In this document: piece by piece, positions 7,765 through 25,658 of the stretch | Numbering within the stretch: position 1 is the first letter of the stretch | Layout: every line of letters starts with the position of its first letter | Origin: an uncultured Myxococcales bacterium | GTDB lineage: Bacteria > Myxococcota_A > Polyangia > Palsa-1104 > JAEUJZ01 | Direction: 5' to 3' | NCBI GenBank assembly: GCA_937868485.1 | Contig: CALMML010000474.1 | Coordinates: 1-36,257, forward strand | Length of the DNA stretch: 36,257 bases | The notes under the pieces: model-generated | Database searches by the model: none | Seen by the model: the letters and a program-made list of their open reading frames with translations, nothing else | What the model was told of the DNA's origin: nothing | Made by a program: the position numbers and the translations under genes

Positions 7765-9327
7765 ATCCTGCGCTGGCGGCCAGACCAGCAGCATCGTTCC
7801 GGTCAGCAGCGCGGCACCGCCAATCGACGTCAGCGTCGAGCCCGGCACCGTCGTATCGTAGACCTGCATGCACTGCGTGGTCACGTCGCCCAGCCCCGAC
7901 ACACAGCGACTGTTCACCGCCAGCGCCGACAGCCCGAAGCCAATCATCACCGCACCCGCCATCACCGAGCTTGCGCCCGCCAAGATCCGCCAGCGAGGAC
8001 GCTGTCCCGACGGACTGCGCTCCGATTCGCCTTCGACGATCGTGATCTGCCGAAGTGGCTCACTGCTTCCGACGAGCAGCGTCTGTTCTACCGTCTGAAG
8101 CTGTCCCGCCGAAAGTGAGATCTCACGCGACGCTGGCAGCAGTCCCTCTTTCCGTAGCGTCAGCGAGTGACTGCCTGCCCACACCGTTCGTCGCAGCGGC
8201 GTCAGACCCAGCGTGCGTCCGTCGAGCACAACCTCTGCGCCCTCGGGCTGCGAGCGCACCACAATCGTCCCACGCGGCCTCGTCAGCGCGTCCGTCAGCA
8301 CCTGGCTCGTTAGCATCGCTGTCTCGTCGCCCGCTTGACTGAGACCACAGCCCGAGCACGTTCGCACCGCTTGCGCCGCACGCTCCGTCACCGACGTATC
8401 CAGCGCTTCCAGCTTCAGCTTCAGCTCTCGACCCGACCGCCAGCGATGGCTCACTTCGACGTGAAGAAGAAGCAGCAGCGTCGCTTGGTTTTCTTCCGCC
8501 AGCGAGAGCTGACAGCGCAGCTCCGACAGACAGCCCGACAGCCGTGGCGACGTCGACAGCGCCGCCGTCTTTCCTTGCACACCAAGCTGCTTTTCCGTCG
8601 CAGCCCGCGTCACAGCCTGTTCCAGCGCCTGAATCTCTTCGTCGGACAGCGACTCAGGAGAGCCTTGATCAATCACCTTCAGCGTCGGCTGCACCAGCAG
8701 AAGCACCGCAGGCTGAAGCGTCGCAACCACCGCATCCGACGAAAACTGAAAGCGCAGCTCGGCAGTACGCGACGCCATCACCTTGTACAGCTCTTCTTGT
8801 CGACGCGTACCGAGGCTCATCGCAAGCAGGTGCGGTCCCGGCGACAACAGCAGCGGCGTCGGCAGCGGAAGCACACCGACGGGACGATCATCCACCGTCA
8901 GAACGGCTCCTCGCTCGCCGTGAATCACCACTTCCCCACACAGCGGCCTCGGCAGCGCAACCAGCTTCCGCGCCACCGCTTGCAGATCTTCCGAGTCCGC
9001 GCCCGGCTCTGCCACAAAGCGTCGCAGCAGGTCCATGGCGTCGAGCGCTCGTCCTTCCGCCTGCGCCAGCCGTCCCAGCAGATACAGCGTCTGCGGCTGC
9101 GGCGACTGTCGATACGCATCGTCGAGCAGCTTGTGCGCCAGCGCAAAGTCCGCCCGTCCCAGCGCCGCTTCTACTTTCTGACGAAGCTCACGCGCGGCTC
9201 GCCGAAGCTGAGGCTCTTTGGACGAGCCTGCATGCCGAGCCTCGGCAGGAACCGCCATCAACGAGCCCAGCCACAGCGCCGCAGCCGCACTACGAACAGA
9301 GCTTGAGCTCGACGCTTTCACCGGCAT
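7735..9327 (-). CDS. Secreted or membrane-anchored TPR/PEGA-domain protein
   Basis: 530 residues from ATG 9327, chosen because it starts a signal peptide (MPVKASSSSSVRSAAAALWLGSLMAVPAEA). The mature part begins with a TPR-like block (VEAALGRADFALAHKLLDDAYR, TLYLLGRLAQAEGRALDAMDLL). A short PEGA-like strand region follows (GEVVIHGERGAVLTVDDRPVG). The middle resembles a regulator or lipoprotein-associated adenylate-free domain that I cannot name. Near the C-terminus there is a clear PEGA domain (RGTIVVRSQPEGAEVVLDG ... GLTPLRRTV), named after its own PEGA-like core, here PEGAEV. The protein ends with two transmembrane segments. PEGA proteins are typical of the envelope of myxobacteria and relatives, and their ligands are unknown. 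It is convergent with the coiled-coil gene and divergent from the vWA lipoprotein. Confidence 0.7.
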   Translation of the reverse strand: MPVKASSSSSVRSAAAALWLGSLMAVPAEARHAGSSKEPQLRRAARELRQKVEAALGRADFALAHKLLDDAYRQSPQPQTLYLLGRLAQAEGRALDAMDLLRRFVAEPGADSEDLQAVARKLVALPRPLCGEVVIHGERGAVLTVDDRPVGVLPLPTPLLLSPGPHLLAMSLGTRRQEELYKVMASRTAELRFQFSSDAVVATLQPAVLLLVQPTLKVIDQGSPESLSDEEIQALEQAVTRAATEKQLGVQGKTAALSTSPRLSGCLSELRCQLSLAEENQATLLLLLHVEVSHRWRSGRELKLKLEALDTSVTERAAQAVRTCSGCGLSQAGDETAMLTSQVLTDALTRPRGTIVVRSQPEGAEVVLDGRTLGLTPLRRTVWAGSHSLTLRKEGLLPASREISLSAGQLQTVEQTLLVGSSEPLRQITIVEGESERSPSGQRPRWRILAGASSVMAGAVMIGFGLSALAVNSRCVSGLGDVTTQCMQVYDTTVPGSTLTSIGGAALLTGTMLLVWPPAQDLATDSTLRR

Positions 9328-9640
9328 CCAAGTCCAGCAGTCCTCGCTTCGATCCGCCCCGTCCCGCCCCAGGGGCACCGCACGACCGCACAACCCTCGG
9401 TCACTACGCTGGCCAACTGGCCCAGGTTCTCACAAAGCACCAACAATTGGTAAGCGATCCGCAGGAAGGGGATCGTCCTACGTCCACGCACAGCAAAAAT
9501 TGCCAGCCAATCTTGCTGCGTCGCAGTCCTTGCCGGGTAAGGAATCGCTCCTCTTCCGTCGGTGAATCGCAACGGAATCGCTTGGCACTGTTGCTGCAAT
9601 TGCTTGGCTCGTCCGCGCTTACACAACACGGAGAACGCCT
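9328..9640. other. Divergent intergenic region, 313 bases
   Basis: This stretch separates the starts of the PEGA gene (minus) and the vWA lipoprotein gene (plus). Long plus-strand open frames that cross it are out-of-frame readings of the PEGA gene and its leader and show no family features. The right part holds a candidate sigma-54 promoter (9583-9597) and a Shine-Dalgarno sequence (CGGAG, about 8 bases before ATG 9641). I see no riboswitch, small protein or hairpin that stands out. Confidence 0.6.
9583..9597 (+). promoter_or_regulatory. Candidate sigma-54 (-24/-12) promoter
   Basis: TGGCAC-TGTTG-CTGC matches the sigma-54 consensus TGGCAC-N5-TTGC at all positions but one (C for T). The invariant GG and GC doublets are 10 bases apart. 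Transcription would start near 9609, giving a leader of about 32 bases before ATG 9641. Myxobacteria use sigma-54 widely. No activator site was identified upstream. Confidence 0.45.
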
Positions 9641-11119
9641 ATGAAAAAGACCTTCCTGACCCGATTCATCGCGCCCTGCATTGCTCTGTCACTTGCGAGC
9701 GGCTGCTCTTCCTATTCCTCGCTCAGCGGAGCCGCGCCAAGTGGTGACTTCGGAGCCACTCCGGGAGGCGTAAAAGATCTCTCTTCCGCACGAGCGCTCG
9801 TCGACAACGGACAAGTTCCACCAGCCAGTGCCCTGCTGGTAGAAGCAGCATTTGCAGAGCACGATCTGCCACTCAACGGAGCCCCCTGTTCGCGCGCGCT
9901 GTGTCTACGGAGTGCTGTAGGAATCGCTCCTGATGAGGAAGGAAGACAGGCTGGTTGGCTTCAGATCGGAATGTCTTCCAGCATCGATCCAGCGACATAC
10001 AAGCGCAACACACTGCATGCAATCCTAACTGTAGATGTCTCTGGTTCGATGGGATGGAGCTCTGCGCACAGTGACAACCCGGACTACGCAACCCCAGGAC
10101 GACTCGCGTATCTGTTGTCGCGCAAGATCGCATCGCAGCTCACACCGGGAGACAGCGTGTCTTTGGTCACGTACGGAAGCAATGTCACCACCGTGCTAGA
10201 GAGCGTGGCCGGGGACGATCCGCAGATCTATGCTTCGATCGAGCGGCTCACGACTGCGGGTTCCACCAACATGGAAGCGGGTCTGCGCCGCGCCTATGAG
10301 ATTGCAAGTCGCCGAAAAGGAGTCGCAACCGATTCTCGCGTCTTTCTGTTTTCCGATGAACAGCCCAACGTCGGAGCCACCGCCGCAACGGACTTTCAAA
10401 AGATTCTGCAGAGCGGAGCCAGTGAAGGAATCGGCATCACACTGTTTGGACTCGGTCTGGGACAGAGCAACGAGCTGACGCAGCAGCTGAGTCACCTGCG
10501 CGGAGCCAATGCCTTTAGCTTGACCAAGAGCTCCGATGTCGATGCGCTGATTCAAGACTCGTGGCCGTGGATGGCGAGTCCGATTGCCTATGATCTGAAG
10601 CTGAACGTACAAGCAGCGATGGGCTTCTCTGTGACGACAAACTATGGCTTCCCTGGCGATTCACAGAGCGGTCCGATGCTCGATGTGTCCACTGTATTCC
10701 TGAGCAAGCGCAAAGGAGCGCTGCTGCTTCAGCTGGGTGGCGATGGCACCAACTGGAAAGGAATCGGCGCAAACACGCAGCTTTCCTACACCAGCACATC
10801 CGGTCAGGCGCTGACGGACTCGCTCAGCAGCGCCTATTCCGGTGCACCCCTGGATGCACGCAACATGTACTTCGAGCAACCATCGGTCGGAAAGACTGTT
10901 TCGCTTGCCATGTTGGTATCAGCAATGAAGTCCGCAGCAGAGCTGTACGCCATCGATCATGCCGCCGCGATTGCAAAAATGGAAAAGGTTGTGACCCGAA
11001 TCAGCGACGACGCAAAGGCATTTGCAGACCCCAGCTTTGATCGCGATGTGAAGCTTGCAACAGACATCCTTGCACTGATGAAGAAGGGCGCACCGCAAGG
11101 GAATCTGTATGGACGGTAG
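9641..11119 (+). CDS. von Willebrand factor type A domain lipoprotein
   Basis: 492 residues. The N-terminus (MKKTFLTRFIAPCIALSLASGC) is a textbook lipoprotein signal with lipobox cysteine at residue 22. A ~100-residue linker region leads to a vWA domain with a complete metal-ion-dependent adhesion site. The MIDAS shows DVSGS at 132-136, a threonine in the TTAGSTNMEAGL loop, and a third aspartate in FLFSDEQPN. Beyond the vWA fold (to about residue 310) the protein continues with a beta-rich domain, as in other secreted vWA/YfbK-type proteins. The likely role is metal-dependent protein binding or adhesion at the cell surface or periplasm; the ligand is unknown. A good Shine-Dalgarno sequence precedes the ATG and a sigma-54-like promoter lies upstream. 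Confidence 0.82.
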   Translation: MKKTFLTRFIAPCIALSLASGCSSYSSLSGAAPSGDFGATPGGVKDLSSARALVDNGQVPPASALLVEAAFAEHDLPLNGAPCSRALCLRSAVGIAPDEEGRQAGWLQIGMSSSIDPATYKRNTLHAILTVDVSGSMGWSSAHSDNPDYATPGRLAYLLSRKIASQLTPGDSVSLVTYGSNVTTVLESVAGDDPQIYASIERLTTAGSTNMEAGLRRAYEIASRRKGVATDSRVFLFSDEQPNVGATAATDFQKILQSGASEGIGITLFGLGLGQSNELTQQLSHLRGANAFSLTKSSDVDALIQDSWPWMASPIAYDLKLNVQAAMGFSVTTNYGFPGDSQSGPMLDVSTVFLSKRKGALLLQLGGDGTNWKGIGANTQLSYTSTSGQALTDSLSSAYSGAPLDARNMYFEQPSVGKTVSLAMLVSAMKSAAELYAIDHAAAIAKMEKVVTRISDDAKAFADPSFDRDVKLATDILALMKKGAPQGNLYGR

Positions 11120-14403: not shown

Positions 14404-15780
14404 CTAAAAACCGCTGGAAAGAAATCCTGGTAATGGTCCCGCGCTGGAATCTCCAAAGCGCCAGATGTCTTGCTTCATCGCACGCGCAAGGGAGACCAGC
14501 AGATCCCCATGTCGCCGGTATCCGTACTGAAGGAGTCGTCCCGTGGTCAAGGCTCCGCCCGCTTTTCCAGCGACGACAAAAGGGAGATTGTCATGGCTGT
14601 GGGTATTGCCATCGCAGATCTCGCTACACAGGATCACCAACGAGTAATCCAGCATCGTTCCATCGCCTTCGGGCCGCTGCTTGAGCTGATCCACCAGATA
14701 CGCAAACTGCTGCACCCAGTAGCGTCGCTGCGCAAAGTAGTCGCGGAACTCGCGCTTCGCTTTGTCCTGACTGGGTCCGTAGTGCGACGCTTGATGACTG
14801 CGCATGTCAAACTTTGGATCGTACATCTCCGTCGCTGGAAAACGACTCATGATGAGCTCACTTGTGTGATGCGATGCTTGCACCACACCTACTTTGGTGA
14901 GCCCACACGCCATCGCTTGCACCATCAGATCCAGCTGCGCGCGCAGGATCTTCGGAAAGTTCCCTGGATCGTACAGCACAGCGTCGGTGAGTCCGGTTGT
15001 ATCAATGCGCGGATCCGAGCACGTCGCTTTGGACGGAGGCATCATTTCTGGAATTCCCTTCACCCTCCGTTCGACCTCTCGCAGCGCTTCCACATGCAGA
15101 TCCAGCTTCTTTTTTTCCACGGTTCCAAGCTGTCCGCGTAGCTCTTCCAAGTCCTTCATCGTGGCATCAATCACACTGACAGCCAGCGGATCTTGGGTCG
15201 TTCCCCCAGTGCCTCCTCCCGACGGATTGGTCTTCCCAAACAGACGCTCAAACGCACGCATCGGACTGTCTTCCGGGGTCGCGCTCGCTCCGGCACTGGG
15301 ATAAGAGATGTGCTTGTCTCCTGATGCGCTGTTGTGATTCGCCATCGCGCCCAAATACAGATGACGAAACAGTGCAGCTGACCCTGCGGTCTTGGCCAGA
15401 TACTGATCAATCGATTCGCCGTTGCCACCGTCGACAGCAGTCAGCAGCTTCTTGGCTCCGCCTGGGTGACTTCCGGTGTCTGTGGGACCAGAAGACAGAC
15501 CGTTTAGGAATACACACTCATCCTTGAGCGTCCCCAGTCCTTGGAGCTGTTCGTTGACGGAAAATCCGCGCTCTGGACCTTGCAGATGCCACAGGCTCGG
15601 ACTGCCATCTGCCGACGGACCGGCTACGCCATCTGGAAAGTAGAAAAAGATGATTCGTCGCGCACCACCGGAAGGAGCAGCCAGCGCACGTCGCGCCTTC
15701 GGATACAGTCCACCGAGCGGAATGGCCAGCGCGGAAGCCGCCGCAGCACGAAGTAGATCTCGTCGAGAAAACACGCTCAT
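14404..15780 (-). CDS. DUF1552 family Tat-exported protein
   Basis: 458 residues. The N-terminus MSVFSRRDLLRAAAASALAI is a twin-arginine signal, so the protein is exported folded. The body matches DUF1552: RRIIFFYFPDGVAG near the N-terminus, FLNGLSSGPTDTGSHPGGA, GESIDQYLAKT, LYLGAMANHNSASGD, and a C-terminal half with VVQASHHTSE and a YSLVILCSEICDGNTHSHDNLPFVVAGKAGG segment. The His/Asp-rich end resembles the metal site of alkaline-phosphatase/sulfatase-like folds. DUF1552 genes nearly always follow DUF1592/1588-type cytochrome genes in Planctomycetes and Myxococcota. Here the ATG overlaps the stop of the cytochrome gene (ATGA at 15777-15780), so translation is coupled. GGAGAG lies 5 bases before the start. 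The biochemical role is unknown. Confidence 0.85.
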   Translation of the reverse strand: MSVFSRRDLLRAAAASALAIPLGGLYPKARRALAAPSGGARRIIFFYFPDGVAGPSADGSPSLWHLQGPERGFSVNEQLQGLGTLKDECVFLNGLSSGPTDTGSHPGGAKKLLTAVDGGNGESIDQYLAKTAGSAALFRHLYLGAMANHNSASGDKHISYPSAGASATPEDSPMRAFERLFGKTNPSGGGTGGTTQDPLAVSVIDATMKDLEELRGQLGTVEKKKLDLHVEALREVERRVKGIPEMMPPSKATCSDPRIDTTGLTDAVLYDPGNFPKILRAQLDLMVQAMACGLTKVGVVQASHHTSELIMSRFPATEMYDPKFDMRSHQASHYGPSQDKAKREFRDYFAQRRYWVQQFAYLVDQLKQRPEGDGTMLDYSLVILCSEICDGNTHSHDNLPFVVAGKAGGALTTGRLLQYGYRRHGDLLVSLARAMKQDIWRFGDSSAGPLPGFLSSGF

Positions 15781-17999
15781 CGGGACTCTCCTTGCTGTTC
15801 AGAAGGGGACGCAGCGCGCAGCAGGAATCCTTCCCGCTCGACAATGGCAAGCAGCAGATCTTGGATGCGATAGCCACTATCACGAAAACGATTCTGGAGT
15901 CGCCACAGCGTGCAGAAGTGCTCGCCCACATCTTCCTGCGTCCCTTGGCTGTAGCGCAGCGTCTTGCGAACGAAACACATGCGTGCGCGCTCGGACTCTG
16001 CAAGCAGCTGACCCAGCGCTTTGAGCGATCCATACTGCGCATGGGTCAGCGATCCCAGCGCTTCCCGATCGTTTAAATCACCGACGGAATCGATCGGCTG
16101 ACCGTTTTCCGATTCGCGCCACCTGCCAATCGCATCGAAGCGCTCAAAGCCAAAGCCGACATCATCAATGTACTGATGGCAGCTCTTGCAAAATGGAACG
16201 CTGGTATGTTGTCGAAAGCGCTCACGCGTGGTCGCGTTCGGATCAACCTGCGGCACTCCGCCCGCATTGGGAGGCGGTGGCGGAAGCTCTTCACACAGCA
16301 GCTGTCGACGCACAAACAGACCTCTGCGAATGGGCGAGCTTTGATCAGAGTGCGCATAGCTGCCAAGCACGCTGCCGTGACCCAGCCAGCCTGCACGCGG
16401 AGTCGATCCGTAAGACTGCTTGCCCAGCGCGCTGCCGGACACGCCGCTCATTGCGTACAGCGTCCCAAGCTCTGCGTTCACAAAGGAATAGTCGGCTGAA
16501 AACAGCTCATCCAAGCGGCCCGTTCCGTCGAAGACCACATGTGAAACAAAGCGCTGTGTCTCTTCTGCCATGGCCCTGCGGAGTGACTCCGAAAAGCCCG
16601 GATACAGCGCGGTGCTCTTGTTGGTGGTCAGGATGTCTTCCGCGCCCAAATACGACAGACCATAGGCACCGATCACGCTGCGACTTCGCGGGCTGGCCAG
16701 CAGTCGCTGCGCCTGCTCACGCACCTGTTCAGGAGTCAGCAGCTCCCCGCGCGCCGCTGCCGCAAAGAGCTGATCATCTGGCATCGTGCCCCACAGCAGA
16801 TACGACAGCGCGCTCGCTGCTTCATATCCTGTCAGCTTGTACGTTCCGTCGGACTGTAGCTCTCCCAGCTCGGATCGATACAGGAAGTAGGGACTCGTCA
16901 GCAGCGCCTGTACTGCCGCAGAGATTCCTTCCGCAAACGTCTTTTGGGATGTGATGAGCGCCGTATATCGCGACAGCTCACTGGGGCGAAGTGGTCGACG
17001 GAACGCACGCAGTCCAAAGGTCTGTAGGAACTGCTCTGCACAGACTCCCAATCGGCCTCCGCTGGGATCACAAGGAAGCACAGAAGAGAGCTGATCCGTG
17101 ATCTGTTTGGCTGCGATCTCTGCACCTTTTCGGAAGCCTTCCAGATGCGACGTCGAGACAAGTCTTGCGTCGGAGTGATTGTCGAATCCGTAGCCCTCTG
17201 GTCGCGCATCAGGAGGCAGATCCGCTGTCAGATCAAGCGGCTCTCCCCCTGGCTTACAGGTCACAGTCAGGACAGAGTTCTGTCCGCCAAAGCCATCTGG
17301 CATCGTGCGAGGATTGCTGGAGTCTGTCACCCAGTCCTTTTCATCCAGCACAAACTTGTAGCTGTAGGAACCGGGGTCCAGGACTCGCGTCAGTTTCCAG
17401 CGCTTTTCCGTCGCAGAATATGTCAGCGGCCAGCCGCCTGCAGCCAGCGTTCCGGGCCAGCCATTGAAGCTTCCCGCCACATGAACAGAGCGAAGCGTCT
17501 TCCCTTGTGGATCGAACGAAAACACCGGAGCCGTACAGCTTGTGCTGCGCGGTGGAAGCAGATCCGTGATCGTGTTTTGGTATTCCTTTCGCGTCAGCAG
17601 TCGCAGTCTACGGACTCCCAAGCTGCGCTCTGCACACGTCGGAGATCCCGCTTTCATGTCGGCCTTGAGATAGGCCGTTACATACTTTGCACAGGAATCA
17701 CCACAGCGGCCCGGACTGCCGGGGGGCATCCGCTCGGTGATGATCTGGCGAAGCGACTCTGCGCTCTGTGTCGACGGAAGCAGAGCGGGAGCAGAGACTC
17801 CTTGTCCGCTTGTGCCATGACAGACAGAGCAGTGCTCAACATAGAGCGCTTGTCCTTTCGACACCGCATCTGGATCGGCTGTCATCGGATCTTCGGCTGT
17901 GGTCTGTACACAGCTCGATCCGAAACTGAAGGACACAAGCGCGACGACAAGGTTGCGCGACAGACCGCGCACCGACAACGATTGGGCGGGAGTCTTCAC
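15777..17999 (-). CDS. DUF1587/1592/1588/1585 c-type cytochrome with inserted CBM48-like domain
   Basis: About 740 residues from GTG 17999; GTG 18008 or 17972 are alternatives, and a longer frame to 18104 would overlap the upstream gene. VRGLSRNLVVALVSFSFGSSC is a lipoprotein-type signal. A cytochrome c domain follows with heme motif CSVCH (about residue 57) and a TERMPPGS methionine-ligand region. Then come DUF1587 (RLLTRKEYQNTITDLL), DUF1595/DUF1592 (FLYRSELGEL, FSADYSFVN, LGHGSVLGSYAHSDQSSPIRRG), DUF1588 with a second CxxCH (FCKSCHQYIDDVGFGFERFD) and DUF1585 at the end. Between DLL and PEGYGFDNH of DUF1587 an extra ~90 residues match the AMPK/CBM48 glycogen-binding fold (HVAGSFNGWPG, YSYKFVLDEKDWVTD). 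It heads a coupled pair with DUF1552. The function of the family is unknown; secreted electron transfer or polymer turnover is inferred. Confidence 0.85.
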   Translation of the reverse strand: MKTPAQSLSVRGLSRNLVVALVSFSFGSSCVQTTAEDPMTADPDAVSKGQALYVEHCSVCHGTSGQGVSAPALLPSTQSAESLRQIITERMPPGSPGRCGDSCAKYVTAYLKADMKAGSPTCAERSLGVRRLRLLTRKEYQNTITDLLPPRSTSCTAPVFSFDPQGKTLRSVHVAGSFNGWPGTLAAGGWPLTYSATEKRWKLTRVLDPGSYSYKFVLDEKDWVTDSSNPRTMPDGFGGQNSVLTVTCKPGGEPLDLTADLPPDARPEGYGFDNHSDARLVSTSHLEGFRKGAEIAAKQITDQLSSVLPCDPSGGRLGVCAEQFLQTFGLRAFRRPLRPSELSRYTALITSQKTFAEGISAAVQALLTSPYFLYRSELGELQSDGTYKLTGYEAASALSYLLWGTMPDDQLFAAAARGELLTPEQVREQAQRLLASPRSRSVIGAYGLSYLGAEDILTTNKSTALYPGFSESLRRAMAEETQRFVSHVVFDGTGRLDELFSADYSFVNAELGTLYAMSGVSGSALGKQSYGSTPRAGWLGHGSVLGSYAHSDQSSPIRRGLFVRRQLLCEELPPPPPNAGGVPQVDPNATTRERFRQHTSVPFCKSCHQYIDDVGFGFERFDAIGRWRESENGQPIDSVGDLNDREALGSLTHAQYGSLKALGQLLAESERARMCFVRKTLRYSQGTQEDVGEHFCTLWRLQNRFRDSGYRIQDLLLAIVEREGFLLRAASPSEQQGESR

Positions 18000-18022
18000 A
18001 ACCCGCACACTAGCAAAACGCG

Positions 18023-19363
18023 CTAATTTTTTGCGGGTGGTCGCCAGCCTTTTAACGGTCCAGGCTTGCGACGGACTCCGTAGTGACCGCCCACAAACTT
18101 GCACTGCATCACGTACAGCGCCGACGACAAAATGTTGAGCGCTGACTTCAGATCGGCCCGCTCACCGGGACGCTGCGGATCGGGCGGAACAGGAACCGGA
18201 AACGCTTCGTAACAGACAAGCTCCGCTTCACGCGCCGTGGCTCGACACTGATACAGCCTCGCGACCAGCTCACCCTGACGAATCGACGGATACATGAACG
18301 GAACGCCGTACAGCTTGTGCGTGTTGTGCGACGCGTGCCGAATCTCTGCCTGCGTCATGCCGAGCAGACGAAGCTCGGGAAGCGGCGTCTCCATCACCTC
18401 GCAGCCCACCATTGCGCGCAGAAGCTGCATCACTTCTTCGAGATCTCCGACGAGTCCCGATGCACCTTCCTCATCTGCCGTGCGCTGCGCATCGAGCACC
18501 AGCCCTTGCAGCAAGTCCAGCTTGCCACGCAGTCGCATCCGAGGATGGCTCTTTTCGACCAGCGTCTCATCGTCGCGCAGATGCGTCAGGTGATCGGGCT
18601 TCTTCTGCAGGCGCTGTCCCGTCGACAAAACCTTGAAGCGACCTTCTCCCGGTCCTGGCGGTCTGCCTGACAGCGACTCACCACCACCACGCGCCGACTG
18701 ACGAGTCGCGAGCGGAGCCTTGGCCACGTCGATGACTGCCGCTGCAAACGCTTCCGCTGCCGCTTCACACGCAGCAAGGGAGCCCGAAAGGTATGCGCCC
18801 GCGAAGTTGGTTTCCGTCGGAGGACCAAAGAACTTGACCAGCTCGACACCACCCACTTTCAGCGCCGCATCGATCGCAATCATCGCTTCCAGCGGAGGCG
18901 CAATCAGATACGCAAGCGGCTCGCCGACAGAGACACCAGCCAGCTTCGACAGATACCGTCCCGTCGCGCGGATGACATGAGGAAAGAAGCAGAGCTGTCC
19001 ATGTCCGTCCGCCGAATAGAACCACGCTTCGTCGCGGAGTGTGCGCTGACAAGCTTCGAGCGCGTGATGCACCTCGTCGATGTCATGACTGGCATAACAG
19101 CCAATCACTTCTCCCGACAGAGGTCCCGACGCATGCGCAGCCCCGGCATAAAACGACTTGGCATAGACCACTTCGACTGAAGCAGCCTTGGTTCCTTCGT
19201 CGAGCGCCACGTACAGCGCATCATCGCTTGTGCAAGTGATAAACCCAACCGAGCGAACACCGTCGGGAAGTCCAAGCTGCTGAGCCAGCGGCTCTGCGAC
19301 GGTGGCAATCGTACGCACCGACAGAACCGAAGGCTTGACCGGACACAGAGAAAAGCGCGCCAT
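18023..19363 (-). CDS. eutL/eutT: EutL microcompartment shell protein fused to EutT-like corrinoid adenosyltransferase
   Basis: 446 residues. Residues 1-217 align along their whole length with EutL, the trimeric tandem-BMC shell protein of the ethanolamine compartment. Shared stretches are DDALYVALDEGTKAASVEVV, KSFYAGAAHASGPLSGEV, GEPLAYLIAPPLEAMIAIDA and PPTETNFAGAYLSGSLAACE. After a ~33-residue Gly/Pro/Arg linker, residues ~251-428 match EutT, which makes adenosylcobalamin from ATP and cob(I)alamin. Matching stretches are KKPDHLTHL, EKSHPRMRLRGKLD and a C-terminal LNILSSALYVMQ helix. The EutT N-terminal lobe with the HX11CCX2C metal motif is missing, so this belongs with metal-motif-lacking EutT forms or has lost that function. 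It starts 17 bases after eutC and is surely in the same operon. The adenosylcobalamin product is the cofactor of ethanolamine ammonia-lyase. Confidence 0.85.
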   Translation of the reverse strand: MARFSLCPVKPSVLSVRTIATVAEPLAQQLGLPDGVRSVGFITCTSDDALYVALDEGTKAASVEVVYAKSFYAGAAHASGPLSGEVIGCYASHDIDEVHHALEACQRTLRDEAWFYSADGHGQLCFFPHVIRATGRYLSKLAGVSVGEPLAYLIAPPLEAMIAIDAALKVGGVELVKFFGPPTETNFAGAYLSGSLAACEAAAEAFAAAVIDVAKAPLATRQSARGGGESLSGRPPGPGEGRFKVLSTGQRLQKKPDHLTHLRDDETLVEKSHPRMRLRGKLDLLQGLVLDAQRTADEEGASGLVGDLEEVMQLLRAMVGCEVMETPLPELRLLGMTQAEIRHASHNTHKLYGVPFMYPSIRQGELVARLYQCRATAREAELVCYEAFPVPVPPDPQRPGERADLKSALNILSSALYVMQCKFVGGHYGVRRKPGPLKGWRPPAKN

Positions 19364-19380: not shown

Positions 19381-20235
19381 TTACCCGAGGATGACGCCGG
19401 ACTTTTTGTCCCGCAGGATGCGCGCGATGCTGTCGGAAATCTGCGCCGCCGCTTGCGCCGGAGGAAAGCCGCGCGGGTTGATGTTCGAGATCACTTCTCG
19501 ATCCGCATCGGTTGCGCCCGTCGCTGGCCGATAGATGTAATACGCTGACAAGCTGTCCGCAAAGCCCAGTCCGGGACGCTCACCGCAGATGAACAGACAG
19601 CTCTCACACGCGATGAGCCGCGCGACTTCATCCATGATCTTGACGCGCGACAGGTGAACGAACAGCGGCGGATTTGCGACAATGCCTCGCGACGAAAGCT
19701 CCCGAGTGAGCGCTTGCTGAAGTGGCTCGGCATTGACGTTGATCGCTTCCGCCGACAGTCCGTCGCCGTAAATGATCTGAAGCTGCGCACCTTTTGGCAG
19801 CTTCGCGGCAATCACGTCCTTCGCTTCGTCGGACAGCGCACGCCCCGCATCGGGACGCTGCAAAAAGTGCTTCTTGTCTTTGGCCTGACTGCGCACTTGC
19901 ACAAAACCGAGCCGGTCGAGAAGCTCGCTCTTGACCTCGGACAGCACCGCTTCTTTCGCCGCTGCGTGATCCGCGCGAAACTTCAGCAGCGTCGACGTGG
20001 TATAGCGCGTTCCGGTTCGGCCCACCGCCACCCGCGCCGGAGTCGAAGCAATCAGCGACTTCAGCGACGAAGGCTGCGCGGGATTCGGCAGCACACTTGG
20101 CTGAAGCAGCACTTCGCCACCCTGCGTAAAGGTCGACTGTGCGACGTGCTCGGCGACTGCGCGCGGATCAGAGTGCTTGCGCAGCGCTTCCCGAACCATT
20201 GCTTCAATTGCGCCTCGGTCGAGTGTGTCAGCCAT
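19381..20235 (-). CDS. eutC: Ethanolamine ammonia-lyase small subunit EutC
   Basis: 284 residues from ATG 20235 (the frame stays open to 20256). EutC is the light subunit of the adenosylcobalamin-dependent lyase that splits ethanolamine into acetaldehyde and ammonia. The conserved core is intact: TPARVAVGRTGTRYTTSTLLKF, RADHAAAKEAV, KKHFLQRPDAGR, IIYGDGLSAEAIN, LFICGERPGLGFADSLSAYY and SNINPRGFPP. The N-terminal ~70 residues are variable, as usual for this family. The heavy subunit gene eutB, normally directly upstream, is not here: the region before eutC holds a divergent coiled-coil gene. A functional lyase would need eutB elsewhere in the genome. A small hairpin lies in the leader 21 bases before the start. 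Confidence 0.92.
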   Translation of the reverse strand: MADTLDRGAIEAMVREALRKHSDPRAVAEHVAQSTFTQGGEVLLQPSVLPNPAQPSSLKSLIASTPARVAVGRTGTRYTTSTLLKFRADHAAAKEAVLSEVKSELLDRLGFVQVRSQAKDKKHFLQRPDAGRALSDEAKDVIAAKLPKGAQLQIIYGDGLSAEAINVNAEPLQQALTRELSSRGIVANPPLFVHLSRVKIMDEVARLIACESCLFICGERPGLGFADSLSAYYIYRPATGATDADREVISNINPRGFPPAQAAAQISDSIARILRDKKSGVILG

Positions 20236-20255
20236 GTGCGGCGGGTTATAGCACA

Positions 20256-20275
20256 CGCCTCAAAAAACTGAGGCG
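20256..20275. promoter_or_regulatory. Perfect 7-bp hairpin in the eutC leader
   Basis: CGCCTCA (20256-20262) pairs fully with TGAGGCG (20269-20275) around a 6-base loop, which is AAAAAC on the plus strand and GTTTTT on the minus strand. It lies 21 bases upstream of the eutC ATG. It could be a leader hairpin, an operator or chance. It is not a cobalamin riboswitch, since no B12-box-like sequence was seen. Confidence 0.4.
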
Positions 20276-23288: not shown

Positions 23289-24355
23289 TGCGCAACCAGA
23301 CAAGCGTAAGGAGCCCGCGCGCACAACTTGTGGGGCTTCTGTGTTCGCTGTGGATGATCTTCGGACAGAGTGGCTGTAGCACCTATTCCACCGAGAGCAC
23401 AGAGGTCGGTGTTCGCACGCGCAAGATCTTCGGAGCCGGAATCGATCCGCATGTCTATGAGCCCGGTGCAACGTACGTATTCTTTCCGTTCCTTTCAGAC
23501 TGGGCGACGTTCGACATCACGATCCAAAAGCTGGAGATGGCGACCAACAAGGATCGCAACTCGGATCGGGTAGATGATCCTGTTTTGCTGAAAACCACCG
23601 ACGGAAATGACATCAGCATTGATGTAACGGTGACGTGGCAGATCGATCGCACCAAGGCGCCGCAGATCCTGACGCACGGAGGAAGAAGCACCGCGATCAT
23701 CAAAGAAGAGCTGGTTCGTCCGGCGTGTCGCGCCTACGTTCGGGATGCGTTCAACGAGCTGCACTCAGAGGAGTTTTTTGATCGCAAGCGACTGCTCGAA
23801 AAAGCGAGCAAAGCGAAAGCAAAGCTCAATGAGGAGCTGAACGCAGAAGGCGTGCTCATCCTGGAAGTGATGCCCGGAGAGCAGCGCTTTAACCCGGAAT
23901 ATGAGCGCGTGATTCACGATCGGAAGATCGCGGAGCAGAATGCAGAGCGGCTCAAGAGCGAAGCGCAAGCGGCGGAAGCGGAGCAGACGCGGCAGCTTGA
24001 AAAAGCGCGCGGTGATGTGCAGGCGCAGATTGCAGAGGCCAAAGGTCGCGTCGAGCGGATTCGCATCGCCGCCGAGCGTGGCCTGTATGAAAATGAGCGC
24101 ATCGCGAAAGCGATCCTGGTTGAAGCCAGCGCGAAGGCCAAAGCGATCGAAAAGCAGAACAAAGCGATGGCAGGTGCAGGTGGGCGAACGGCGGTGAAGC
24201 TCCGCATTGCAGAGGCGCTCGCGGGCAAGCCGATCTTGATCGTTCCGGCAGCGAGCGGCGCCAACATCCAAAAGCTTGATATGACGCGCATTGTCGATGC
24301 AGTGCTGGCCAAAGAAGCCACGTCTGGCTCATCCAGCAGTCACGAGTCCGAATAA
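23288..24355 (+). CDS. SPFH/band-7 domain lipoprotein (second of a pair)
   Basis: 355 residues. The signal MRNQTSVRSPRAQLVGLLCS continues to a lipobox FGQSGC (Cys30), a clear lipoprotein. The SPFH domain follows: STEVGVRTRKIFGAGIDPHV, GATYVFFPFLSDWATFDI, DGNDISIDVTVTWQID and a conserved-type AYVRDAFNELHSEEFFD. A long coiled coil rich in Ala, Glu and Lys (about 210-300) precedes a C-terminal AGKPILIVPAASGAN segment parallel to the VRVIIVPSTG of its neighbour. The shared architecture shows the two are paralogues, though divergent in sequence. Placement beyond the inner membrane is unusual for SPFH proteins and hints at an outer-membrane or periplasmic scaffold. Coupled translation (TAATG) supports a joint complex. 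Confidence 0.8.
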   Translation: MRNQTSVRSPRAQLVGLLCSLWMIFGQSGCSTYSTESTEVGVRTRKIFGAGIDPHVYEPGATYVFFPFLSDWATFDITIQKLEMATNKDRNSDRVDDPVLLKTTDGNDISIDVTVTWQIDRTKAPQILTHGGRSTAIIKEELVRPACRAYVRDAFNELHSEEFFDRKRLLEKASKAKAKLNEELNAEGVLILEVMPGEQRFNPEYERVIHDRKIAEQNAERLKSEAQAAEAEQTRQLEKARGDVQAQIAEAKGRVERIRIAAERGLYENERIAKAILVEASAKAKAIEKQNKAMAGAGGRTAVKLRIAEALAGKPILIVPAASGANIQKLDMTRIVDAVLAKEATSGSSSSHESE

Positions 24356-24419
24356 GTCCCGTCGATCGCCTACGCAGTGGCCAACGCAGCGCTGCCGGAT
24401 GCACGCAAAACATGTGACA

Positions 24420-25658
24420 ATGGATCGCGTGTCACTGAGCCAACCCGAGTTTGTGTCGAAGCTGTCACCGCTGGGTCCGCGTCTGCGTCGCATCATCTTG
24501 ATGGCGTGGGATGGATTTTGGCAGGATCGCTGCTCGCTTTCGGCGTCGTCTCTGTCGTATCAGACTGCGCTGGCGCTGGTTCCGTCGGTTGCGATCGGAC
24601 TGGCCTTGCTCAAGTACTCTGGACAGCTTGAAGACGGCTCGCGGCTGCTGTCGGTGGTGGTGCAGCAGGTGTTTCCGTCTTCACAGGAAGCCCAAGCGGA
24701 AGTGGTCGGTCGGCTCTCTACGTTTTCCCAGAACTTCACAGCAGGAGGTCTGGGTAGCTTCGGTATCGTCGCTGCGCTCGGAGTCGGATTCTTCCTGTTC
24801 CTTTCGGTCGAGTCGATCTGGAATCACATCTGGGAATCCCATCGCGAGCGAACCTATATCGAGCGATTCCTGCTGTTCTATACCGGGATTACGCTGATTC
24901 CGTTTGTGGTGACGCTGTCGTTTGTGCAAACGGAAAAGCTGTGGGGTGGATTTGCGGTGTATCTGCCCTATCTGTCTCCGCTGCTTACGACGGTGGTGCT
25001 GTCGCTCGCGAATCGCTTGATTCCGACGCTGCGCGTGTCGTGGCAAGCGGCTCTGTCCGGGGGCGCAACGGCGGCAACACTCCTAGAGATCAGCAAGTTC
25101 GGACTGGGTCGTTACCTAAGCTGGGTGGCGACGAGCTACAAGTCGATCTACGGAGCGCTCGGTGTGCTGCCGCTGTTTCTGCTGTCGATCTATCTGTGGT
25201 GGCTGATTGTGCTGTGGGGCGTGGAAGTCTCGCGCGCAGTACAGCGTCTGCCGTGGCAGCTCAAGTTTCATGAAAGCGGAGAAGCGCGGGACACACACCT
25301 GACGATCAGTGGACCGCTTGCGGCGCGGCTCCTGACCGATGTGGCGCGACAGTTCAAGAGCGGCGGAAAACACCTTCCAATTGATGAGCTGACGCAGCGA
25401 CACGGACTGCCAGAGAGCGTTGCGCGTCGGGTGCTGTCTCGTCTGGCCAAGCACAACTTCGTGGTCGAGCATGAGGATGGTTATCTGCTCGCGCGGCCTC
25501 CCGAGTCGATCCGCATGGTGGAAGTGCTGCGCATCTTTACGCCCTCGCAATATCAGCGATCTGAATCAGAGCCCGATCAGCTCGATCAAGTGCTGGCCAA
25601 GCTGGAAAAACAGCAGCAGCAGACGCTCACAGATACGACGTTTGCTGATCTGCTGTGA
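24420..25658 (+). CDS. YihY/BrkB-family membrane protein with C-terminal winged-helix-like domain
   Basis: 412 residues from ATG 24420. The transmembrane domain carries the family pattern: FWQDRCSLSASSLSYQTALALVPSVAI at the first helix, GSFGIVAALGVGFFLFLSVESIWNHIW, RFLLFYTGITLIPFVVTL, TLRVSWQAALSGGATAATLLEISKFGLG and YKSIYGALGVLPLFLLSIYLWWLIVLWG. About six helices end near residue 275. A soluble tail (~295-360) looks like a winged helix-turn-helix (ELTQRHGLPESVARRVLSRL, then NFVVEHEDGYLLARPP), as in the long members of the family. BrkB/YihY proteins have no settled function; transport or envelope roles are proposed. The gene follows the SPFH pair by 64 bases and converges on mbnH with a 6-base gap. 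Confidence 0.8.
   Translation: MDRVSLSQPEFVSKLSPLGPRLRRIILMAWDGFWQDRCSLSASSLSYQTALALVPSVAIGLALLKYSGQLEDGSRLLSVVVQQVFPSSQEAQAEVVGRLSTFSQNFTAGGLGSFGIVAALGVGFFLFLSVESIWNHIWESHRERTYIERFLLFYTGITLIPFVVTLSFVQTEKLWGGFAVYLPYLSPLLTTVVLSLANRLIPTLRVSWQAALSGGATAATLLEISKFGLGRYLSWVATSYKSIYGALGVLPLFLLSIYLWWLIVLWGVEVSRAVQRLPWQLKFHESGEARDTHLTISGPLAARLLTDVARQFKSGGKHLPIDELTQRHGLPESVARRVLSRLAKHNFVVEHEDGYLLARPPESIRMVEVLRIFTPSQYQRSESEPDQLDQVLAKLEKQQQQTLTDTTFADLL

Follow-up and report, generated by a model that had tools for sequence, protein, structure and literature searches.

A conserved fusion of the shell protein EutL and an EutT-type adenosyltransferase domain in an ethanolamine-utilisation satellite of Haliangium-type microcompartments

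The shell protein EutL, a permuted BMC-T (PMC8217296), has been proposed to act as a gated entry pore for adenosylcobalamin (AdoCbl) in an article (PMC5821096) that also cites a shell protein with bound cobalamin (Thompson 2014). According to the same article, the AdoCbl of the ethanolamine ammonia-lyase EutBC is inactivated during use and needs replacement or readenosylation. A metal-independent class of the adenosyltransferase EutT, found in Listeria, has been recognised (Costa and Escalante-Semerena 2018, as cited in PMC9426561), while the human adenosyltransferase is a trimer with its active sites at the subunit interfaces (PMC9262797). EUT modules comprising EutA/B/C and EutL are described as satellites of Haliangium-type (HO) shells (PMC8217296), and those of the HO, SPU3 and SPU6 types (Sutter 2021, PMC8217296) carry eutB, eutC and an EutL-type BMC-T apart from the main HO-like locus. 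In the Escherichia, Listeria and Clostridioides loci examined here, EutL and EutT are separate proteins, as a previous reading of the present DNA from its sequence alone had held to be the normal state.

The window analysed here, a stretch of 36,257 nucleotides from an uncultured Myxococcales bacterium (contig CALMML010000474.1 of assembly GCA_937868485.1), carries an eutL-eutT fusion gene at 18023..19363 on the minus strand (ATG at 19363, stop codon at 18023-18025), present as one copy in the source genome. Its uninterrupted frame encodes a protein of 446 residues, hereafter referred to as EutLT, in which an EutL-type shell protein is followed by a variable linker and an EutT-type domain. The sequence-only reading had proposed such a union in one polypeptide, and domain searches bear it out, with TIGR04502 and NF011934 matching as EutL models and PF01923 and NF011595 matching at the C-terminus; an EutL model and an EutT model both match each of the 30 fusion proteins aligned.

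The EutL domain (residues 8-219; 18707..19342, minus strand) consists of two circularly permuted PF00936 BMC domains that extend across the whole EutL model. TIGR04502 is matched over model positions 2-213 of 214 with an E-value of 1.1e-86 and 289.7 bits, slightly missing its cut-off of 300, and NF011934 (EutL) with an E-value of 5.3e-85 and 284 bits, above its 198-bit cut-off. A PDB search with EutLT retrieves the EutL chain 4edi (E=1.4e-59), the EutL half is approximately 46-52% identical to the solved EutL chains (PDB 4edi, 3gfh, 3i82/3i87 and 3u27), and its predicted structure fits the EutL crystal structures with a TM-score of 0.90 by target. The EutL identity previously given to residues 1-217 stands, with the end of the domain corrected to near residue 218-219. 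Like EutL of Escherichia, Listeria and Clostridioides, it is a complete two-domain protein encoded next to eutC, differing from those proteins in the added C-terminal linker and adenosyltransferase domain; by homology it would assemble into a trimeric pseudohexamer whose central pore is gated.

The source is a draft assembly of 514 contigs, so that two genes might have been joined artefactually by misassembly or a frameshift. This explanation was rejected and retains practically no probability, since an uninterrupted frame holds the identical fusion in 32 separate genomes from this phylum, which makes the junction independent of any single assembly, and both halves are under purifying selection. 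The fusion is real. Sixteen of these genomes came from a search of 58 relatives and 16 more from a phylum sample of 379 genomes, together spanning at least two classes, and no stop interrupts the junction in any of the 32, one of the proteins (L075) ending at codon 427. In two genomes (G001 and G016) the two halves lie at contig ends, probably owing to assembly breaks.

In a maximum-likelihood tree built from 50 EutL domains, all 32 fusions fall in one clade (support 97/87), in which the sole unfused member comes from the genome G003; the simplest reading of this pattern is a single fusion event with one sampled later loss, and the fusion is an old trait found across the phylum. The G003 gene (L033:8170-9156, plus strand) encodes an EutL without the EutT half but with an EutC-like N-terminus, and its frame stops just past a linker-like remnant; its beginning is such as might result from a deletion that brought the encapsulation-peptide-like start of eutC up against eutL, and the genome holds a further EutB/EutC pair elsewhere (L034). 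In eight pairs of fusion genes, dN/dS ranges from 0.068 to 0.145 for the EutL half and from 0.066 to 0.264 for the EutT half, values indicative of purifying selection on both. Apart from its three positive controls, a profile search for EutT in 79 genomes recovered only the contig-split G016 and a weak match (7.4e-4) in G119; among the 75 EutL-bearing genomes without the fusion, 74 showed no match to a separate EutT and the remaining one a weak match. In the plasmid collection no record was matched over 80% of the query, and among the matches listed only those of EutL length occurred. One scan of genome contigs for the fusion outside the phylum, with other phyla essentially unsampled, returned only close relatives.

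The EutT-type ATP:corrinoid adenosyltransferase domain was placed at about residues 250-425 (18089..18616, minus strand) using models, alignments and invariant residues, in good agreement with the range of about 251-428 suggested earlier. PF01923 (Cob_adeno_trans) is matched at residues 260-421 with 36.3 bits against a gathering score of 24, while NF011595 (EutT) is matched only at model positions 85-245 of 267 (E=8.9e-19; 67.6 bits against a cut-off of 226), the N-lobe being missing from the alignment. Similarity to EutT proteins begins shortly before the KPxxxTHL motif, and the HX11CCX2C motif of the metal-dependent EutT class is absent; the loss of both N-lobe and metal motif had been noticed in the sequence-only reading. 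Absence of the motif alone is not unusual, since Listeria EutT also lacks it. The domain is 33-34% identical to the EutT proteins of Listeria and Clostridioides, which share this absence, but the N-lobe kept in Listeria is replaced by EutL in EutLT. The Escherichia and Salmonella enzymes belong to the same catalytic domain family (25% identity to E. coli EutT) and differ in having both the N-lobe and the metal motif.

Catalytic-domain features are retained, as the motifs R-A-x-x-R-x-x-E and L-N-x-x-S are both present and their residues R374, R378, E381, N410 and S413 are invariant in all 30 fusion proteins. Four of these (R374, R378, E381 and S413) correspond to Arg186, Arg190, Glu193 and Ser217 of human MMAB, a correspondence drawn from the shared motifs alone, with the human protein unaligned; the human residues coordinate ATP and AdoCbl or support this coordination (PMC9262797). 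A profile of the C-terminal domain retrieves solved adenosyltransferases from the PDB and aligns to the housekeeping adenosyltransferases of these genomes with a probability of 95.5, whereas a single-sequence PDB search with the domain gave no match. The structural model of this domain is poor (pLDDT mostly 35-69) because the prediction was built on only six sequences, and no natural adenosyltransferase occurs among the structural matches listed for the EutLT model. The EutT half is predicted to have ATP:cob(I)alamin adenosyltransferase activity. A stand-alone PduO-type adenosyltransferase is also present in every genome checked for it, so that this activity may be redundant. That enzyme, together with the loss of the N-lobe and the fact that most EutL-bearing relatives manage without EutT, would suit a noncatalytic role for the domain, as a corrinoid-binding or structural appendage that could, for example, retain cobalamin close to the pore of EutL or to EutBC; the invariance of the five residues, including the matches to ATP and cobalamin contacts, and the low dN/dS of the EutT half make such a role improbable.

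The two domains are joined by a variable linker at about residues 218-255 (18599..18712, minus strand), which was proposed to be flexible from the sequence and is supported as such by its variation in length from 37 to 52 residues across 30 homologues (about 37 in this EutLT) and by low pLDDT over residues 218-271 of the EutLT model. Its dN/dS exceeds that of the domains in most of the eight pairs. A long, variable and predicted disordered segment of this kind could be cut after synthesis, in which case the fusion would serve only to make free EutL and EutT in matching amounts and to co-target them, but the linker alignment shows no conserved cleavage motif and this explanation is considered very improbable.

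The gene eutC, for the small subunit of ethanolamine ammonia-lyase (19381..20256, minus strand; PF05985 E=3.5e-75; NF003971), is separated from the downstream fusion gene by 17 bases and shares its strand, an adjacency kept in relatives. Most relatives examined have the order eutB-eutC-eutLT; the genus of the source bacterium has eutB on a different contig. The N-terminal extension of EutC, LDRGAIEAMVREALRKHS, read by eye, resembles an encapsulation peptide, and so does the similar N-terminus of the shell aldehyde dehydrogenase, VDEKRIQEIVDKVLLRLS. The source genome has an HO-like main shell locus in the order BMC-T, BMC-H, BMC-P, aldehyde dehydrogenase and BMC-T, and a separate satellite of two BMC-P and a class II aldolase, of a kind described for type I HO compartments (PMC8217296). 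Contig C339 of this genome encodes four successive BMC-P (pentamer) domains in one region (L032, about 8569-9819, plus strand), out of seven genome-wide. With eutB, eutC and EutL located away from the main shell locus, the fusion locus belongs to the described eutB-eutC-eutL EUT module, a satellite of HO microcompartments. It departs from the published modules (PMC8217296) in the fusion of EutL to EutT, the latter without mention in the parts of that article consulted, in the separation of eutB, which this genus has on a different contig, and in the lack of a full-length EutA.

Full-length EutA was absent from the 25 genomes searched for it; 22 of these contain PF06277 matches of 42-68 positions, which probably represent FtsA/PilM-like ATPases, and three contain none. 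No cobalamin riboswitch or other Rfam RNA turned up in scans of the window and of three related loci. A second ethanolamine ammonia-lyase, an EutB-EutC fusion of 783 residues, is encoded on contig C98 of the source genome (L030:8104-10452, plus strand); its N-terminus, MKSASWFSLRRRSFLAAMLGGAATAALPSCSKS, resembles a Tat lipoprotein signal, and export would be unusual for a B12-dependent lyase. Long EutB frames similar to it occur in G001, G002 and G003. Elsewhere in the window, a BrkB-family membrane protein shares one frame with a C-terminal Rrf2-type regulator domain (24291-25655, plus strand), and a multi-domain cytochrome c/DUF1592-DUF1588 protein carries an AMPK1_CBM glycogen-recognition domain (15777-18104, minus strand).

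EutLT is best read as a bifunctional shell tile whose lumenal adenosyltransferase would make or renew AdoCbl beside EutBC, a reading to which a probability of about 0.6 is assigned. The EutL pseudohexamer would occupy a facet of the HO-type microcompartment, and the EutT half, devoid of the metal motif and held on a tether of 37-52 residues, would most likely project from its lumenal face. In this position its ATP-dependent adenosylation of cob(I)alamin would supply or renew the AdoCbl of the EutBC lyase, whose EutC has the encapsulation-peptide-like N-terminus; a tethered adenosyltransferase would serve the need created by inactivation of the cofactor in EutBC. The lumenal placement is predicted from two published observations, namely that permuted hexamers have their termini on the convex face (PMC6109187, PMC10938918) and that tiles of the HO shell have the concave side outward (PMC6787980).

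How shell proteins are oriented in native compartments remains debated (PMC6109187), the cytosol is rich in ATP, and EutL has been proposed to admit AdoCbl (PMC5821096), all of which would favour a cytosolic loading dock, where the EutT domain adenosylates the corrinoid outside and the AdoCbl is passed in through the EutL pore. The convex termini of permuted BMC domains and the lumenal convex side in the HO shell argue against this arrangement, which is regarded as unlikely. For the bifunctional tile with a lumenal enzyme, trimer formation, shell incorporation, the lumenal position, the enzymatic activity and any transfer of corrinoid from the pore of EutL are inferred. Tethering of cofactor synthesis to the shell facet, with three enzyme domains on each trimer, was part of the sequence-only reading and would follow from homology. 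Since EutL and the human adenosyltransferase are both trimers, a coaxial C3 arrangement of the two is possible. A more tentative extension, held at clearly less than even odds, is that the EutL pore binds corrinoid and passes it to a coaxial lumenal EutT trimer, so that the shell itself would make or repair the cofactor and replace a separate EutT and perhaps EutA.

In the literature searched, which lay mostly outside subscription journals, no earlier description of an EutL-EutT fusion was found. The fusion is regarded as new and as built of known parts; its architecture may already have entries in sequence databases. The closest engineered counterparts are the permuted hexamers PduA-P and CsoS1A-P, which likewise carry cargo on a terminus of a permuted BMC domain; EutLT differs in being natural and in having a predicted catalytic domain as the cargo.

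Proteins that occur fused commonly act in the same pathway, and the fusion therefore lends independent support to the proposed handling of cobalamin by EutL. It also offers a direct route to testing which face of EutL points inward, and a natural template for the tethering of enzymes to shells, which has so far been done by engineering only. If the proposed role is true, a natural and conserved fusion of tile and enzyme would mean that microcompartment shells can be catalytic surfaces as well as barriers.
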